Assembly (NCBI RefSeq): GCF_000015965.1
Contig: NC_009091.1
Coordinates: 1,302,001 to 1,366,000 of the forward strand
Length of the DNA: 64,000 bases
Source of the DNA: Prochlorococcus marinus str. MIT 9301
GTDB taxonomy: Bacteria; Cyanobacteriota; Cyanobacteriia; PCC-6307; Cyanobiaceae
Direction: 5' to 3'
The notes beneath the pieces are model-generated. The model was given only the letters and a program-made list of their open reading frames with translations. It was not told the origin of the DNA and ran no database searches. Positions 1,941-51,058 of the stretch are shown piece by piece (within the stretch, counting starts at the first letter, position 1; every line of letters begins with the position of its first letter). The position numbers and the translations under genes are program-made.

Positions 1941-2309
1941 CTAACCAATTTCAGAAGGGAAGATATTACCAGGTTCTTTTGAGCCTGGTTTTTTGCTATA
2001 CCACCATTCTTGTATATCAGAAGAAAATTTCTTTGAAAAAAGAGTTATTACTGTCTCAACAGGTTTTGATCCAGGCTCCAAAATCTGAACTGAGTAAGAT
2101 GGACATTTTCTTGAAGCCATATCAGCAACGAACCTAGACCCTATTCTTCTCCAACTAGGCTCCTTACTTCTCCAAGCAAGCCTAGAGCAGGGCCATGGTA
2201 ACTCTTCCCTATCATAAAGTCTGCAACATGGGCCAATTACCTTATAACTGTACTGACCACCATAACTTGATTGAACACTGCCAGTCTTGAAAAATTCAAA
2301 TTTATCCAT
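1941..2309 (-). CDS. Conserved-looking hypothetical protein, 122 aa
   Basis: Not a family I can name. The protein is soluble, rich in Trp, Arg and Cys (GPCCRLYDREELPWPCSRL, SWRRIGSRF), with an N-terminal FEFFKTGSVQSSYGGQYSY segment. Base and codon usage look like a real gene, and it fills the space between the pentapeptide gene and ferredoxin. Its last residues (PGSKEPG) are encoded by the inverted repeat that acts as terminator of the convergent pentapeptide gene, an unusual double use of sequence. Confidence 0.7.
   Translation of the reverse strand: MDKFEFFKTGSVQSSYGGQYSYKVIGPCCRLYDREELPWPCSRLAWRSKEPSWRRIGSRFVADMASRKCPSYSVQILEPGSKPVETVITLFSKKFSSDIQEWWYSKKPGSKEPGNIFPSEIG
1968..1994 (+). terminator. 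Intrinsic terminator of the pentapeptide gene
   Basis: Nine-pair stem ACCAGGTTC (1968-1976) with GAGCCTGGT (1981-1989), loop TTTT, followed by a run of six T. It lies 37 nt after the stop of the pentapeptide gene and inside the 3' coding end of the convergent minus-strand gene. Confidence 0.85.
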
Positions 2310-2312
2310 TCA

Positions 2313-2343
2313 CAAAAAAAAAGCCACCTTCATAGAGGGTGGC
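2313..2343 (-). terminator. Intrinsic terminator downstream of ferredoxin
   Basis: GCCACC (2323-2328) pairs with GGTGGC (2338-2343). On the minus strand the hairpin is followed by ten T (the A run at 2313-2322). It closes the ferredoxin transcription unit just before the start of the next minus-strand gene. Confidence 0.85.
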
Positions 2344-2388
2344 AGAGAAATTATCAATAATCAACTTAGAAAAGTTAAATTTTTATAA

Positions 2389-2688
2389 TTAGTACAATTC
2401 TTCCTCAGCATGAGTTGTAATTGTTACGTCAGATGTTGGATAAGCAACACAAGTAAGAACAAAACCAGCTTCTAGTTGGTCGTCATCCAAGAAACTTTGA
2501 TCAGACTGATCAACACTACCTGAAGTAACTTTTCCAGCACATGTTGAACATGCACCAGCTCTGCAGGAGTAAGGAAGGTCAATACCTTGTTCTTCAGCCG
2601 CATCGAGGATGTATTGGTCATCAGGTACCTCAATAGTTGAATTGAGACCTTCACCTTCGCTGATGAGAGTAACTTTGTAAGAAGCCAT
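2389..2688 (-). CDS. petF: Plant-type [2Fe-2S] ferredoxin
   Basis: Photosynthetic electron carrier that takes electrons from photosystem I to FNR, nitrite reductase, thioredoxin reductase and others. The cluster motif CRAGACSTC (residues about 42-50, C-x4-C-x2-C) and the fourth cysteine in VLTCVAYP are all present. At 99 residues and strongly acidic it is a normal cyanobacterial PetF. It is monocistronic, with its own terminator 46 nt downstream. Confidence 0.95.
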
Positions 2689-2822
2689 TTAAATAAAAAA
2701 TTGTTGGTAATTAATACCTATCAAATACATTTTTAACATCGATTAGGTCGATATGTGAGATTTTGAAGTAAAAAATGACACAATAAAATGTATGAAAGAG
2801 TATCTATAAGAAAAACTTATAC

Positions 2823-3734
2823 TTAGGTTGAATTGCTGGCTTTTTGCGCAGAAATGCATGCCCAATCTTTTCTAGTTGATACATCCAATAATTTCAAGTC
2901 ATGCTGAATTAATATTTTTATAATTTCATCCTTTTGTGAATTCAGAATTCCACTGAAAATGACTTCCCCATTGTTTCTCAAGCACTTATAGATATTTGGA
3001 ATCATTCCTTTTATTACTTCAGCAAGAATATTGCATAAAACAAAATCAAATTGTTCGAGTTGATTTTTTAAAATTACCTCATTAAAAGATCCCAAATATG
3101 TATTTAATTTGTTTAAATTACCGAAATTTAGTTGGAAATTAGATTTTGTTGAATTTATAGCTAAATAATCATTATCCACGGCACAAACCTCTTTAGCACC
3201 AAGTAATCTTGCGGCGACACTCAAAATCCCGCTACCGCTCCCAATATCTAATACCTTTTTATCAGAAAATAAAATATTCTCCATTTTTTCCAAGCAAAGA
3301 TAAGTTGAAGGGTGACTTCCTGTACCAAAAGCTGCTCCGGGATCAATTTTTATGATTTGTTTATCTTTAAATTTTTTATTTAGATTTATCCAACAAGGCA
3401 ATATTAAAAAATGATTTCCTACTAATTCAGGAGCCCAATATTTCTTCCAACTTGTTAACCAATCCTCCTGTTTGATAATACTCCATTCAAAAAATTTATT
3501 CTTAGGGGGATTAATGTTTAAAAGTTTGATAATTATTTTTTCAAAACTACTTCTAGAACTCTCATCCCAATCATCAATTGGAAGCCATATATTAACTTCT
3601 TTTTTATTTTCATTTTTAATTAAATATTCAAATGAAAAACTAAATATTCCCAGCTCATTTAATTTCCAAATAATAATTTCTTCAGAATCACTTTCTATCA
3701 GAAAAGTTAGTTTATACCAATCTTTAGTTTCCAT
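2823..3734 (-). CDS. prmA: Ribosomal protein L11 methyltransferase
   Basis: SAM-dependent methyltransferase that modifies ribosomal protein L11. The family signature [15 protein letters not shown] is present, followed by the SAM motif [15 protein letters not shown] and the post-motif CNILAEV (NPPY-type position). Length 303 fits PrmA. The N-terminal substrate-recognition domain is divergent and lysine/asparagine rich, as common in this AT-rich genome. It is 18 nt downstream of serA on the same strand and probably co-transcribed. Confidence 0.93.
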
Positions 3735-3752
3735 TAACTAGTTAAAGCCACT

Positions 3753-5339
3753 TCATAGAGTAACTGGATTAGCGTTGGTAATCCCATCCACTTCAATAAT
3801 GGTATCAAGTAACTTATTAGGTATTGGATCATCAATACTTAGAACCATAACAGCTTCCCCTCTTACAATTTTGCGCCCAACTTGCATTGAGGCAATATTT
3901 ACATTATTGCTACCTAATAAAGACCCCAGCTTGCCAATAATACCAGGCATATCCCTGTGCCTAGTAACCAACATATATCTGCTTGGTGATACATTAACTG
4001 GGTATTGATCAATACTAATAATTCTTAATTCCCCATCAGCAAAAATGCTTCCCGCTACGCTATGGTCGCCGTTATCTCCATAAGTGGTTAACTGAAGCGA
4101 ACCACTAGCAAATTCAGGTCTTGCCTCATCTTTATTCTCGACTACTGAAATACCTCTTGAATCTGCTTCTAGCGAAGCATTTACATAATTAATCCTATCT
4201 CCCAAAGCTTTACTTAGAAGGCCTTTTAGACTAGCTATTATTAATGGCTGAGAAGGATGTTGAACAAATTCACCTTGAAGCTTTACTTCTAGTTTCTGTA
4301 TCTGTCCACCTGAAAGCTGGCTTATAAGCAGACCCATGGTTTCAGCTAACTGCAAATGAGGTTTCAGACTATCCATAATATCAGGGCTCAAACCTGGAAT
4401 ATTTACTGCAGTTCTAGCAGATAAACCAAGCAAGACATCCCTTATTTGTTCCGCAACATCAACAGCTACATTTTCTTGTGCTTCCCGAGTAGATGCTCCT
4501 AAGTGGGGGGTAAGAATAAGATTCTTTTCAACCTTCAAAAGTGGTGAATTAGATTCCAAAGGTTCTTTAGAAAAAACATCTATTGCAGCACCTGCAATCA
4601 ATGATTGATTTAAAGCTTGTGCTAATGCCTCTTCATCAATCAAGCCTCCTCGAGCACAATTAATTAATTTTGCGCTACTTTTCATATTTTTAAGCACATC
4701 CATATTGACTAAATTCTCTGTCTCTGGTGTGCGAGGTAAATGCAAAGTTACATAATCGGATTGTTGGAATAAATCTTCTAGATCAGATAGTTTAACTTGG
4801 ATTTGTTGAGCTCTTTCAGTTGAAACAAATGGATCATATCCGCAAACTTCCATCCCTAATGCATTAGCAACTTTTGCTACATGAGCACCAATTTTCCCTA
4901 AACCTACTACACCTAATTTTTTCTTATAAAGCTCATTCCCAACGAATTTCTTTCTCTCCCATTTACCTAACAAAGTACTACTATTAGCAATTGGAATATG
5001 CCTAGATAAGGCCAACATCATAGCTATAGTATGTTCAGCCGCTGCTATTGTGTTACCCCCTGGAGAATTAACAACAAGGACTCCTTTTTGCGTAGCAGCC
5101 TTAACATCTACATTATCGACTCCAACTCCTGCTCTCCCAATGATTCTCAGTTTACTTGAAGAGTTAATAATTTCTTCGGTCACTTGAGTACCAGAGCGAA
5201 TCATTAAGGCATCATAATCTCCAATAATGGAAGCTAACTCAGAGTCTGAGATCCCTATCTTGTGATCAACCTGAGCAACTTGTGAAAGAATATCGATTCC
5301 TTTTTGATCAATTGGATCTGTAATGAGAACTTTTGTCAT
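3753..5339 (-). CDS. serA: D-3-phosphoglycerate dehydrogenase
   Basis: First step of phosphoserine/serine biosynthesis: oxidises 3-phosphoglycerate with NAD. The NAD fold motif GVVGLGKIGAHVA, the catalytic region INCARGGLIDE and the catalytic histidine in LTPHLGAST are all seen. At 528 residues it is the long form, with an allosteric substrate-binding domain and a C-terminal ACT domain (about residues 455-528, MLVTRHRDMPGIIGKLGSLL). Upstream partner of prmA. Confidence 0.96.
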   Translation of the reverse strand: MTKVLITDPIDQKGIDILSQVAQVDHKIGISDSELASIIGDYDALMIRSGTQVTEEIINSSSKLRIIGRAGVGVDNVDVKAATQKGVLVVNSPGGNTIAAAEHTIAMMLALSRHIPIANSSTLLGKWERKKFVGNELYKKKLGVVGLGKIGAHVAKVANALGMEVCGYDPFVSTERAQQIQVKLSDLEDLFQQSDYVTLHLPRTPETENLVNMDVLKNMKSSAKLINCARGGLIDEEALAQALNQSLIAGAAIDVFSKEPLESNSPLLKVEKNLILTPHLGASTREAQENVAVDVAEQIRDVLLGLSARTAVNIPGLSPDIMDSLKPHLQLAETMGLLISQLSGGQIQKLEVKLQGEFVQHPSQPLIIASLKGLLSKALGDRINYVNASLEADSRGISVVENKDEARPEFASGSLQLTTYGDNGDHSVAGSIFADGELRIISIDQYPVNVSPSRYMLVTRHRDMPGIIGKLGSLLGSNNVNIASMQVGRKIVRGEAVMVLSIDDPIPNKLLDTIIEVDGITNANPVTL

Positions 5340-5438
5340 TTAAGATTGGTTCTTTAATCTTTTACTTTAACTTAATCTATAGTGTATGTATCTTATTTTA
5401 TTAATTTGAATAACACACAAACATTTGAGGATTGAAAT

Positions 5439-6005
5439 TTGACTAAAAGTATTGTGATATTTGAAGACATTAATAAATGTATCCAGCTATTTGATGTTTT
5501 CAACGAAAAATCAGTAATGCTCTCTGAAGCTATTTTGATCCCACCAATAAGTGAGAAAATATCATCAGACGAAACAGAATTGCTAAATGCGAAAGCAAAT
5601 ATCTTATTCAAATCTCAAAATTTTGAAGATATAAGAATCTTAAATCCTAAACTTGATAGGAAGATCAGGCAAAAAGATATGAGCAGATGGCTAATGCCGT
5701 TTGGGTTTATAGCAGGAATAGCTTTTTCTAATATGACAAATTTATCTACCTTCAGCTTTCTTGGTTTAAATAACATCGGGGAATCTCTCATTGGAGGAGT
5801 ATTAGGAATGGGTTCAGGATATTTAGGAAGCATTGTCTCTTCTGCAAGTATCAACATTAATAGAAATAAAGAGTTAAGATCAATCATTAATTTTAATAAA
5901 GAGGGTAAATGGCTTGTTCTACTTGAAAATCAAATTGGAACTGAATTACCTTGGGCTTTGATAAAACAATCAGAAGCAAAAGATATAATTTTTTTAGAAG
6001 GCTAA
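5439..6005 (+). CDS. Hypothetical protein with Gly-rich membrane segments
   Basis: A 188-residue protein of unknown function, TTG start. The N-terminal 85 residues are soluble and charged. Two hydrophobic Gly/Ser-rich segments follow (LMPFGFIAGIAF and SLIGGVLGMGSGYLGSIVSSA), then a soluble tail. It ends directly before the ATG of the S4-domain gene (no gap), so the two are surely co-transcribed and perhaps translationally coupled. Confidence 0.75.
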   Translation: MTKSIVIFEDINKCIQLFDVFNEKSVMLSEAILIPPISEKISSDETELLNAKANILFKSQNFEDIRILNPKLDRKIRQKDMSRWLMPFGFIAGIAFSNMTNLSTFSFLGLNNIGESLIGGVLGMGSGYLGSIVSSASININRNKELRSIINFNKEGKWLVLLENQIGTELPWALIKQSEAKDIIFLEG

Positions 6006-6797
6006 ATGATTGACTTAAAAGAAATCTTAATAAATTCAAACTACAAAAAAGAAACTGAGGAATTAATAAATATTGCTAACTTAGCTTACAAACACTGGGA
6101 AACTTATTGGACTGGTTTTAATTCAACCTATGTTTGCGAAGAGATTTTAAAAGATTTTGAAAATTTAAATGATTTCAAATTTTTTATTTATGGTGGATTC
6201 TCCTCTTCTCAAAGATCTAGGATAGCTTGCTTTAGAGGGGATAATATTCCTGAGGAGGATGCGCTAAAAAGTAATTTTCCAGCTCAAGGAATAAAAATTA
6301 ATGGGAATTTTTTATTTGATAATGCTACTCAAGACGATTTTAGATCCCTCTTAATTAAAAATGGGGTTAATCAATTAAAAGTTGGGGATATATGGACTAT
6401 TGGCGATAGGGGAGCACAAGGGATAATTGATAATTTAGATATTGAGCATCTAGATGAAAAGATTTTTTATTTAAGAGACGTAAAAGTAAAAATTAATGTA
6501 GTAGGTATAGATGAATTACAAATACCTTCTGGAAGATCAAAAAAACTTGTCAATACAGTAGAAGCCTCAACAAGATTAGATGCTATAGCTTCAGCGGGCT
6601 TTAGGGTATCACGAACCAAAATCATTGAAAGGATAGAAAATGGAATGCTCAGATTAAATGGAAGCAAAGTTAATAAACCAACAATTAATCTAAAAATTGG
6701 CGACAAACTAGAACTTGAAAATAAAGGATTTATTGAAATTTTAAATTTAGAAATAACCAAAAGAGAACGATGGAAAGTTAAATTACTTAGAAAATGA
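6006..6797 (+). CDS. S4-domain RNA-binding protein (YlmH / photosystem II S4 type)
   Basis: The C-terminal part (about residues 180-245) is an S4 RNA-binding domain: STRLDAIASAGFRVSRTKI, then ENGMLRLNGSKVNKPT and IGDKLEL. The N-terminal 170 residues match the YlmH-type extension. Relatives are involved in ribosome quality control in Firmicutes, and the cyanobacterial forms are often labelled photosystem II S4 proteins. The exact role here is inference. Directly downstream lies tRNA-Val. Confidence 0.85.
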   Translation: MIDLKEILINSNYKKETEELINIANLAYKHWETYWTGFNSTYVCEEILKDFENLNDFKFFIYGGFSSSQRSRIACFRGDNIPEEDALKSNFPAQGIKINGNFLFDNATQDDFRSLLIKNGVNQLKVGDIWTIGDRGAQGIIDNLDIEHLDEKIFYLRDVKVKINVVGIDELQIPSGRSKKLVNTVEASTRLDAIASAGFRVSRTKIIERIENGMLRLNGSKVNKPTINLKIGDKLELENKGFIEILNLEITKRERWKVKLLRK

Positions 6798-6847
6798 AAC
6801 GCAACCTGCTATTTTCTTATAAGGGGAATAAAAAATTTCTTCAATTT

Positions 6848-44625: not shown

Positions 44626-45267
44626 ATGCTTTTAAATATATTAATTGCCTCATTAATTCCTTTTGTTGTTTGGGTAATTCAAAAAATATCTGGGAATACA
44701 GGTCCTAAAGCTTCATATTTGAGAAGGAGAATATTCGCATATGGAATATTAATAATTTTTATTTTTAGCGTTATTGGTTTTATCTCTTTATTTCAAGAGG
44801 CACAAGGAAATGGAAAATCAATAGAGATATTATCAAGAGTCTTAGCAAGAGATAGTGTTTTTTGGGCGATATTATTATGGGCTGGTCTATCAAATAAACC
44901 AAATGAAGATAAAGGATTTCTTTATTCAATTTGGCAACCATATAAACCTGAATATATTGCAGATAAAAAAAAGATATCTAAATCCCAAAAGAAAATACTT
45001 AAGAATAAAGAACCAGACTTTTTAAGTGATGAAACCAAAGAGGGATGGTTGATTGATCAAAAAAATACTTGGTGTAAAAGATTTTATTTAGAGAACAATC
45101 CAAATGCAGATTTAAAACAATATGTTGTTGAGCAAACTGGTAAATTGCTTCCTAACCAACCTCCAGAAATAACAAAAGAGCTTAAATTAAAAATAAAAGA
45201 GGCAAAAGCAGATTGGAAATATTACATAAATAATGACTGGTTACCTACGGATAAGAAATGGGATTAA
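44626..45267 (+). CDS. Hypothetical membrane protein, 213 aa
   Basis: Three hydrophobic segments in the first 105 residues (LLNILIASLIPFVVWVI, IFAYGILIIFIFSVIGFISLF, VFWAILLWAGL) followed by a long charged cytoplasmic domain (KKISKSQKKILKNKEPDFL, TKEGWLIDQKNTWCKRFY). No family recognised. Its TAA shares a base with the start of the next gene (TAATG). Confidence 0.65.
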   Translation: MLLNILIASLIPFVVWVIQKISGNTGPKASYLRRRIFAYGILIIFIFSVIGFISLFQEAQGNGKSIEILSRVLARDSVFWAILLWAGLSNKPNEDKGFLYSIWQPYKPEYIADKKKISKSQKKILKNKEPDFLSDETKEGWLIDQKNTWCKRFYLENNPNADLKQYVVEQTGKLLPNQPPEITKELKLKIKEAKADWKYYINNDWLPTDKKWD

Positions 45268-48076: not shown

Positions 48077-48424
48077 TTATGAGGTAACGAGTCCAGAAAA
48101 AGAAGGCATTTGGTTGTTGTACTCACTTTTAAGTAAAGCTTCTTGCCAAAGCCTTGAGAACTTTCCGAGATTTTTAGAAACTAAAGTTTCATTAGCTCTT
48201 TGGTTCTGAAAGATGCGATCAAATCCTGCTTCTTTAGCATTTTTTCTCGCCATCCAGATTTCAAGAACAACTGAATCATCAAGCCGAATTCCTTGACGGG
48301 TTGCCTTTCTGATGTAAGCAGTAAAGTATTTCCTATCACCAAATTGTTTTGGTAAGAGATACTTTTTACATGCTTCTATTGTTCTAAAATCTTCCTCTAA
48401 GTATTTAGAGTGAAGAGTTGACAT
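48077..48424 (-). CDS. Hypothetical protein with a near-perfect SD, 115 aa
   Basis: The SD on the minus strand is AAAGGAGGTGA (48441-48431), an 11-base match to the 16S rRNA 3' end, 6 nt before ATG 48424. Product is basic and helical (SKYLEEDFRTIEACKKYLL, RKYFTAYIRKATRQGIRLDD, GKFSRLWQEALLK). No family recognised. First gene of a three-gene minus unit driven by the promoter at 48589. Confidence 0.65.
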   Translation of the reverse strand: MSTLHSKYLEEDFRTIEACKKYLLPKQFGDRKYFTAYIRKATRQGIRLDDSVVLEIWMARKNAKEAGFDRIFQNQRANETLVSKNLGKFSRLWQEALLKSEYNNQMPSFSGLVTS

Positions 48425-48589: not shown

Positions 48590-48610
48590 TATTTAATTTA
48601 AAAATAGCCA

Positions 48611-48767
48611 TGGCGGGCTAATAGAGGGGAGAGTAATGGCGGGCTTATAAGGAGAAGTGACCGATCACGGGCTTATAAGGAGAGGAGTAATGACGGGTTA
48701 ATAGAGGGAGAGTAATCACGGGCTTATAAGGAGAGGAGTAATGACGGGCTAATAGAGGGAAGATTAT
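48611..48767 (+). repeat. Six-unit tandem repeat array, period 25-28 bp
   Basis: Unit starts: 48611, 48637, 48665, 48691, 48716, 48742. Type 1 units (1, 4, 6) read AT-G-(G/A)-CGGG(C/T)TAATAG-AGGG; type 2 units (2, 3, 5) read AT(G/C)(G/A)CGGGCTTATAAGG-AGAGGAGTA. On the plus strand units 4 and 6 have SD AAGGAG, 7-nt spacer, ATG-ACG-GG(T/C)-TAA-TAG; unit 1 has ATG-GCG-GGC-TAA-TAG and unit 2 ATG-GCG-GGC-TTA-TAA. A worn seventh copy (TTAGAGGGAAGGAGAATAA) is at about 48904-48922. GC content is far above the surroundings. Confidence 0.85.
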
Positions 48768-48800
48768 AAATACAACAAGTCTTCTTTAATACAACAAGCT

Positions 48801-48858
48801 TAGCTGGATATCCCTGAAAGATATCACTTCTAAGTACTACCACTAACTCTTTAACTAG
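48801..48858. repeat. 58-bp direct repeat, copy 1
   Basis: Begins TTAGCTGGATATCCCT, then GAAA, then GATATCACTTCTAA and CTACCACTAACT-like tail. Second copy at 48944-49002 differs mainly in the loop between the two GATATC halves (CCTGAAA against CCTTATT), so the GATATC/GATATC stem is kept while the loop varies. Confidence 0.8.
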
Positions 48859-48943
48859 ACTTAAAAAGTCAAACTATAACTAGGTTTAGAACGAGGGCAC
48901 CCTATTAGAGGGAAGGAGAATAAAATCTCCCTTTAAAATACTG

Positions 48944-49002
48944 TTAGCTGGATATCCCTTATTGATATCACTTCTAACTACTACCACTAACTACTTTAAC
49001 TA
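48944..49002. repeat. 58-bp direct repeat, copy 2
   Basis: TTAGCTGGATATCCCT, loop TATT, GATATCACTTCTAA, then CTACTACCACTAACTAC. Spaced 143 bp from copy 1. Stem conserved, loop changed, as expected for a structured RNA or protein-bound hairpin. Confidence 0.8.
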
Positions 49003-49100
49003 TATATATGTGATATACAAATTAGTAGTAGAGGTAGGATGAGAGGAGATAGAGAAAATATATCTGTTAAATCAATAATAATTAAACTAATAATTTTTTA

Positions 49101-50737: not shown

Positions 50738-51058
50738 ATGGACAGAACACAACAAATAAAAGAAGCTCACCCTTGGCTTTCCTACGACGAAGTAGTGAAG
50801 GTTCTTCTCTATCATCATCAGGGTTCAATGTGGGTACAGAACCTTCAGAGAGACAAGCTTGAGAGGTCGATGGAAGCGTTTACAAAGCTCGTTAAATCTA
50901 AGAGTATAAAAGCCCTTAAACCCTTTGTAGAGTACGTTCTAGACGTGTACTACAACGGTGTAGATGAGTATGGCAATCAGATAGAAGAATCAAGTAGAGA
51001 AGAGCCTTTCGAGCGTAGATGGGATAAAGCAAGAGCTATCCTTTTGAAGAGCAAATAA
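50738..51058 (+). CDS. Hypothetical protein, 106 aa
   Basis: Soluble, helical and basic: AHPWLSYDEVVKVLLYHHQG, ERSMEAFTKLVKSKSIKALK, then an acidic end region ESSREEPFERRWDKARAILL. GC content is somewhat higher than the flanking genes. No family recognised. It precedes the SOS-box gene by 61 nt on the same strand. Confidence 0.62.
   Translation: MDRTQQIKEAHPWLSYDEVVKVLLYHHQGSMWVQNLQRDKLERSMEAFTKLVKSKSIKALKPFVEYVLDVYYNGVDEYGNQIEESSREEPFERRWDKARAILLKSK

Follow-up and report, generated by a model that had tools for sequence, protein, structure and literature searches.

Tandem repeats in a Prochlorococcus chromosome probably collect promoters for the RNA polymerases of different podoviruses

Introduction

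Promoters for the RNA polymerases of phages are known as parts of phage genomes and as laboratory tools. The right end of the T7 genome holds phiOR, and at phiOR and the T7 origins a promoter is placed just after the large terminase gene and followed by a structured leader, which is also the layout of the phage module described below. Host-borne elements that are read by the transcription apparatus of a helper phage are represented by the phage satellites P4/P2, PICI, PLE and PICMI, while tycheposons are known as hypervariable DNA in Prochlorococcus. For phage Syn5, the available text of one study describes a promoter of 15 bp, ATTGGGCACCCGTAA, which occurs twice per genome, once in the RNA polymerase (RNAP) gene (PMC3950665). 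In the Syn5 sequence record, this published promoter begins at 4929, inside the RNAP gene (4120-6459), and again at 44797, 5 nt after the stop codon of terL, the large terminase gene.

Here, we describe an array of tandem repeats in Prochlorococcus marinus str. MIT 9301 whose units are very probably promoters for the single-subunit (T7-type) RNA polymerases of cyanopodoviruses. The window, i.e., the whole stretch of 64,000 nucleotides that was analyzed, comprises positions 1302001-1366000 of the 1641879-base genome. With Syn5 and other T7-type promoters, the units share a recognition core, an AT-rich part and, in most cases, a purine start, and their phage copies are likewise placed both behind terL and within the RNAP gene; the host units differ in that they sit in a bacterial chromosome, in tandem and with several predicted specificities. 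Unlike phiOR, the host module appears to be captured and duplicated, and a phage terminal repeat was not recognized beside the array.

The differences from satellites and tycheposons lie both in content and in flanks. The array holds units for several putative RNAP specificities, no integrase lies close by, and the neighbors tested show no terminase or capsid gene. Neither an integrase nor a tRNA attachment site was found beside the element in the manner of a PICI or tycheposon: in 16 of the genomes, the contig that carries the array, which can be short, has no match to tyrosine integrases (PF00589), and in G000 such a match lies at least about 770 kb from the array. Among 16 host loci, two have a tRNA gene no farther than approximately 7 kb away, and the window's sole tRNA gene is at 6847. 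A natural host array combining many phage-promoter specificities was not found in searches of the open-licence literature.

The Array and the Module Downstream

Six tandem units occupy approximately 48608-48760 in two flavors, ..ACGGGYTAATAGAGGG.. and ..ACGGGCTTATAAGGAGA.., beside AT-rich DNA (67% AT). The first-pass annotation had described six units of 25-28 bp in two flavors, and both the sequence itself and Tandem Repeats Finder (period 26, 5.6 copies; a 51-bp dimer at 97%) agree; a seventh, diverged unit follows outside the span that was then annotated (Table 1). The dismissal of a CRISPR likewise holds on layout, as there is no spacer structure. Four of the units (3-6) are exact to phage cores, and units 1, 2 and 7 are at one mismatch.

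Table 1. Predicted features of the array and its downstream module, in window coordinates, with the phage contigs whose cores match those of the units.
Feature	Position	Strand	Sequence and basis	Phage core match
Promoter unit 1	48608..48633	+	core CCATGGCGGGCT, box AATA, predicted +1 at 48624	exact: none; 1 mismatch: 4 phage contigs, incl. L078, L095, L097
Promoter unit 2	48634..48661	+	core TAATGGCGGGCT, predicted +1 at 48650	exact: none; 1 mismatch: L090, L113
Promoter unit 3	48662..48687	+	core CGATCACGGGCT, predicted +1 at 48678	exact: L089, L105, L148
Promoter unit 4	48688..48712	+	core TAATGACGGGTT, predicted +1 at 48704	exact: L107, L115
Promoter unit 5	48713..48738	+	core TAATCACGGGCT, predicted +1 at 48729	exact: L094, L110, L152
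Promoter unit 6	48739..48760	+	core TAATGACGGGCT, predicted +1 at 48755	exact: L090, L113 (same core also in L113 RNAP gene)
5' hairpin of predicted unit-6 transcript	48756..48787	+	RNA fold	
Block 1	48800..48858	+	TTAGCTGGATATC-n7-GATATCAC.. with pyrimidine tract, homologous to phage right-end element	
Remnant of phage terL 3' end	48863..48889	+	AAAAAGTCAAACTATAACTAGGTTTAG vs AAAAAGTCATACAACAACTGGGTTTAG in phage contig L083, compared by eye	
Promoter unit 7	48892..48915	+	core CGAGGGCACCCT, predicted +1 at 48908	exact: none; 1 mismatch: L079, L142
5' hairpin 2	48910..48934	+	GGGAAGGAGA-ATAAAA-TCTCCC; fold; position as in phage hairpin	
Block 2 (second right-end block copy)	48944..49003	+	similarity to phage right-end block	
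Purine-rich tail	49004..49060	+	predicted pairing with block 2 pyrimidine tract	
106-aa orphan gene	50738..51058	+	genetic linkage to element; membership in element not implied	

The key to the identity of the locus is the repeated block, which the first-pass annotation had missed. Since it is present twice downstream, the array is part of a larger element, and the second copy comes with its own unit (unit 7) and a remnant of the terL 3' end. This decayed, terL-like end, seen by eye between block 1 and unit 7, indicates that the copy derives from phage DNA. Judged from sequence similarity, it is well supported that the downstream blocks represent a putatively captured and duplicated copy of a phage right-end module in the host chromosome. 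The region from unit 6 onwards (48755-49060) is predicted to fold with a z of -3.14, and none of 100 shuffles was equally stable; the purine-rich tail is partly conserved in other hosts. A search of Rfam gave no family above cut-off at the array and two weak matches in the 5 kb searched.

Phage Counterparts of the Units

A blastn search for distant relatives of the array and its downstream DNA returned a single phage, P-GSP1 (two records), in addition to two weak matches to Vibrio phages. The P-GSP1 match is the intergenic gap adjoining the gene for DNA maturase beta (large terminase, terL). When viral contigs were scanned with the block, 39 stretches were obtained, 38 of which contain one unit, the hairpin and the block in this order; L116 was unrelated and was dropped. 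A second scan of viral contigs with the hairpin enlarged the set to 61 contigs. In every one of them (61/61), terL precedes the hairpin in the same orientation, and in 55 the distance from the terL end to the hairpin is within 90 nt. The unit core recurs once elsewhere in the genomes of both P-GSP1 and P-SSP7, and in P-SSP7 this copy is inside the RNA polymerase gene, an arrangement that agrees with the one described for Syn5.

This link between promoter and polymerase was followed in 17 phages, comprising 11 named ones and 6 of 11 long viral contigs (7 of the 11 matched in the RNAP search, the seventh being a fragment), using cores of 15-22 nt that were picked manually in the gap next to terL. 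In 17/17 cases, no other RNAP gene fitted a core better than that of the same phage (5 exact matches, 4 ties with the gene of a relative). Own pairs add up to 21 mismatches over all 17 phages, as compared to a mean of 6.2 mismatches for each foreign pair, and none of 20000 permutations was as good. For P-GSP1, NATL1A-7 and MedDCM-S45-C4, whose records are without an annotated RNAP gene, an unannotated stretch was used, and for P-SSP2 and S-TIP37 the stretch starts before the annotated gene; the pair of MedDCM-S45-C4 is weak, with 4 mismatches in 22. Three RNAP loci from IMG/VR match their cores with 0, 1 and 2 mismatches. Within the RNAP gene, the core copy is found at nt 809-815 in the six phages whose annotated gene was taken unchanged, and it encodes a short variable stretch before the residues IQGE (IQGK in P-SSP2) in 13 of the 17 phages, where it could be read. 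With a promoter core inside the polymerase gene, a swap of the gene would swap the promoter along with it. This core copy inside the cyanopodovirus RNAP gene lies at 6853 in L120 and at homologous places in L119, L160-L168 and L169-L174.

The predicted transcripts of the 17 phages begin with a 5' stem-loop in which the loop is similar and the stem sequences differ yet pair. Of the nine base pairs of the block, three have both partners changed, in P-SSP7 and P-SSP2, and several are broken in the host genome G096. Of the 38 phage contigs selected by the block, 34 have the exact hairpin, while 23 kinds of core occur among them. Such a constant hairpin next to varied cores is the pattern that diversifying selection on promoter specificity would be expected to give. 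In phages of other clades, a terminator-like hairpin with a run of T was noticed by eye soon after the same promoter, in L118 (2815-2972) and in the terL gaps of S-RIP2, MedDCM-S45-C4, S-TIP37 and P-SSP2; the promoter of other-clade phages may thus make a short RNA.

Host Arrays Across the Genus

The block occurs in 17 of 266 genomes of the genus, a count that takes in incomplete genomes. A longer form of the block, with up to 3 mismatches allowed, is present in 8 of 400 genomes of the family, all of the same genus (8/68), and in 0 of 332 genomes of the other genera. Three Prochlorococcus loci (those of G213, G178 and G180) were taken from the 47 stretches of a 16-mer scan of genome contigs. 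A profile search added G096, with a single unit and a diverged block, as well as relics without units in G181 and G209; four further profile matches (G086, G078, G279 and G280) were judged false on inspection.

In the 17 host loci, 12-mers of phage cores occur exactly at 29 of 8189 array positions and at 5 of 691876 other positions, and these 5 are themselves further units, at +92/+93 in five loci. In total, 72 units lie within two mismatches of a phage core and comprise 40 different 12-mers, a count that leaves out the further unit CGATAGTCCCCT at +92/+93, beyond the single block, in L129-L132 and L135, and that is not made up of independent cases, as the arrays of L126, L129-L132 and L135 are near copies. 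Spacings between units are 22-29 bp in 44 of 55 cases. Seven of the 72 units are doubtful (CGACTGTCAATT, a start AATAAATAAC or alike). Host starts such as GAGGGA and AGGAGA differ from the phage start GGGGAGAG, and because of this a position weight matrix built from phage sites, their start included, found few sites in the window (3 in the array region at higher cut-offs, 5 at the lowest); core matching was therefore used instead.

The cores in host arrays fit one phage clade. Of 35 cores from phages of the block clade, 15 are found exactly in host arrays and 24 within one mismatch, as opposed to 0 of 10 cores of podoviruses from other clades within one mismatch; the phage list was drawn from contigs picked by hairpin or block and so covers phages with either of the two. 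With two mismatches allowed, cores of other clades give 3 matches and those of the block clade 256. The array cores and the block thus indicate one and the same clade of phages. Host arrays, read by their cores, combine several predicted phage specificities side by side.

These comparisons also bear on two readings of the repeats that the first-pass annotation had put forward. One took the array for tandem minicistrons that trap or count ribosomes, and its elements are indeed there: AAGGAG (48677-48682), a 7-nt spacer and ATG-ACG-GGT-TAA-TAG from 48690 at unit 4, and likewise a Shine-Dalgarno sequence, ATG and tandem stops before and in unit 6. The comparison among relatives that it had proposed shows that this layout is not kept, as 24 of the 72 host units have ATG in the core, 20 have ATG and a stop within 4 codons, and just 2 also have a perfect AAGGAG, while ATG is present in 10 of 35 phage cores. 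What is kept instead in the 17 host loci is the AT box (69/72 units) and a purine-rich start (65/72). The apparent Shine-Dalgarno sequence is, on the predicted start sites, the initially transcribed purine run, and ATG-ACG-GGC-TAA-TAG is the putative recognition core plus melting box; the layout is incidental, and ribosome trapping or counting has practically nothing left to recommend it. The other reading, that of sites for a bound protein, was right in kind, with a phage RNA polymerase, and not an initiator that binds iterons, as the most likely protein. An iteron-like origin bound by a replication protein of the host or an island would account for direct repeats of 25-28 bp adjoining AT-rich DNA; it is nevertheless hardly credible, since the units of an array differ in the core, in which phages differ too, cores match those of phages, and none of the five window proteins tested has a Rep-type Pfam match. 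As to the divergent promoter noted 22 bp from the array, the minus-strand TTGTCA-17-TATATT (48589-48561) exists, but the number of such sites in the region (3) is what shuffles give (mean 3.1).

Flanks and Neighboring Genes

Most pairs of host loci have little in common outside the element, and shared flanks can part at the element: the left flank of L131 is that of L126 (-1258 to +103, 99%), and its right flank is that of L132 (-144 to +3062, 98%). On the right side, the same run of genes, including one for an EVE-like protein (named by eye), is found within 7 kb in 11 of 17 loci, and the genes on the left differ. Further phage matches by blast in host loci are mostly hli or psbA genes, besides two others.

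Immediately to the left in the window, a 115-aa gene (48077-48424, minus strand) is present in 1 of 60 genomes of the genus, namely its own; by eye, it has a strong Shine-Dalgarno sequence, AAAGGAGGTGAATTC. In L133, the gene immediately upstream of the array encodes a Schlafen-type helicase (2111-4087; PADLOC PDC-S41, E 3.6e-263), a candidate defence protein, and a similar gene is seen in the corresponding place of L124. DnaB_C helicase-like proteins are encoded near the array in L121 (8124-9230, minus strand) and L128 (7528-8460, minus strand). The L121 protein also matches sigma-70 region 4, and in both loci a small related protein is encoded between the DnaB_C gene and the array, the L121 copy being without a Pfam match. 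Other matches among the 20 neighbor proteins tested are DUF6998 (L126), DUF3804 (L127), ClpS (L134) and a TPR protein (L128), with nothing above cut-off for the rest.

The 106-aa gene, or a remnant of it, is present in 16 of 17 genomes with the block vs. 38 of 249 without it. Eight of 17 loci have it as the first downstream gene on the same strand; in the window, it is separated from the array by two genes of the opposite strand. Next to the array, G165, G231 and G267 carry a broken copy, and in genomes without the array the gene has, by eye, an apparent leader of its own. Its protein gave no match above cut-off in Pfam and none in PADLOC, and its AlphaFold model, with a mean pLDDT of 64.5, is of too low quality to be used in searches for similar folds.

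Possible Functions of the Element

If the units are phage promoters, there are good grounds to expect that phage polymerases fire them during infection, and identity and firing taken jointly are probable to nearly the same degree. An infecting podovirus polymerase would recognize the fitting unit and transcribe rightward through blocks 1 and 2. As many units lead to one output, the element would act as an OR gate over phage specificities, the output being a structured transcript or else the captured module in the form of opened DNA. The host could thereby divert the polymerase and make a mimic of the phage right-end element, harming the phage, and the phage might escape by changing polymerase and promoter together. 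The exact hairpin next to 23 kinds of core suggests phages that change specificity under pressure, which speaks for an element that acts against the phage, be it as decoy, RNA mimic or tripwire, and less for a harmless one. Against antagonism, no consistent effector is seen downstream, the window's next gene is convergent, and few of the 20 tested neighbor proteins resemble defence proteins. An effect antagonistic to the phage, rather than a means of replication or packaging, is the function that we favor, though tentatively and at somewhat less than even odds.

The chief rival is that the element hitch-hikes, i.e., that a phage polymerase starting from the array primes replication, like at the origins of T7, and/or marks packaging, so that hypervariable DNA is spread by many podoviruses from a multi-helper origin or packaging aid. 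The module copies the right end of a phage, and plasmids with a T7 origin and a concatemer junction reportedly get packaged, as described by Chung and Hinkle in 1990. The flanks that reassort at the element, the left neighbor gene confined to its own genome and the DnaB_C proteins, which lie within 2.5 kb of the array in both loci, fit such an origin as well, and the available text of one study, according to which some host DNA is packaged by P-SSP7 (PMC7852597), counts in the same direction. However, the absence or distance of tyrosine integrase matches argues against it, host loci have no match to the terminal repeat of P-SSP7 (the repeats of block-bearing phages may differ), and the corresponding site in P-SSP7 is approximately 1.1 kb away from that repeat. 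Moreover, the host-type signature was found in 0 viral contigs of a collection of predicted viruses, and neither of two neighbor proteins tested was found in viral contigs. Hitch-hiking is, in sum, rather unlikely. That the array instead triggers a downstream gene upon infection, for instance the 106-aa protein as an alarm or toxin, is suggested by the linkage of this gene to the block and by its first position in several loci, but it is distinctly improbable given the broken copies beside the array, the intervening genes in the window, the apparent leader of the gene in array-less genomes and the weak model of its protein. A passive, functionless relic of phage recombination would agree with the patchy presence and the unit-less relics in two other genomes; we consider it very unlikely, as decay is seen in the terL remnant but many cores and the block have kept their match to phages, and as several specificities per array are beyond what one capture can give.

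Conclusion

Overall, we propose, somewhat more tentatively than antagonism itself, that this bacterial genome maintains a set of promoters, each fitted to the RNA polymerase of another lytic phage and all feeding, in the manner of an OR gate, into one imitation of the phage right end. The set would thereby sense a conserved phage enzyme and would drive the rapid co-diversification of polymerases and promoters in these marine podoviruses. This reading predicts that an array is fired only by phages whose core it contains. An antiviral or parasitic sensor of this kind would explain why a varied promoter core stands beside a near-invariant hairpin in phages, and the arrays would then be a genome-readable record of the podoviruses that a Prochlorococcus lineage meets. 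The cell may thus carry a multi-virus tripwire or a hitch-hiking device.
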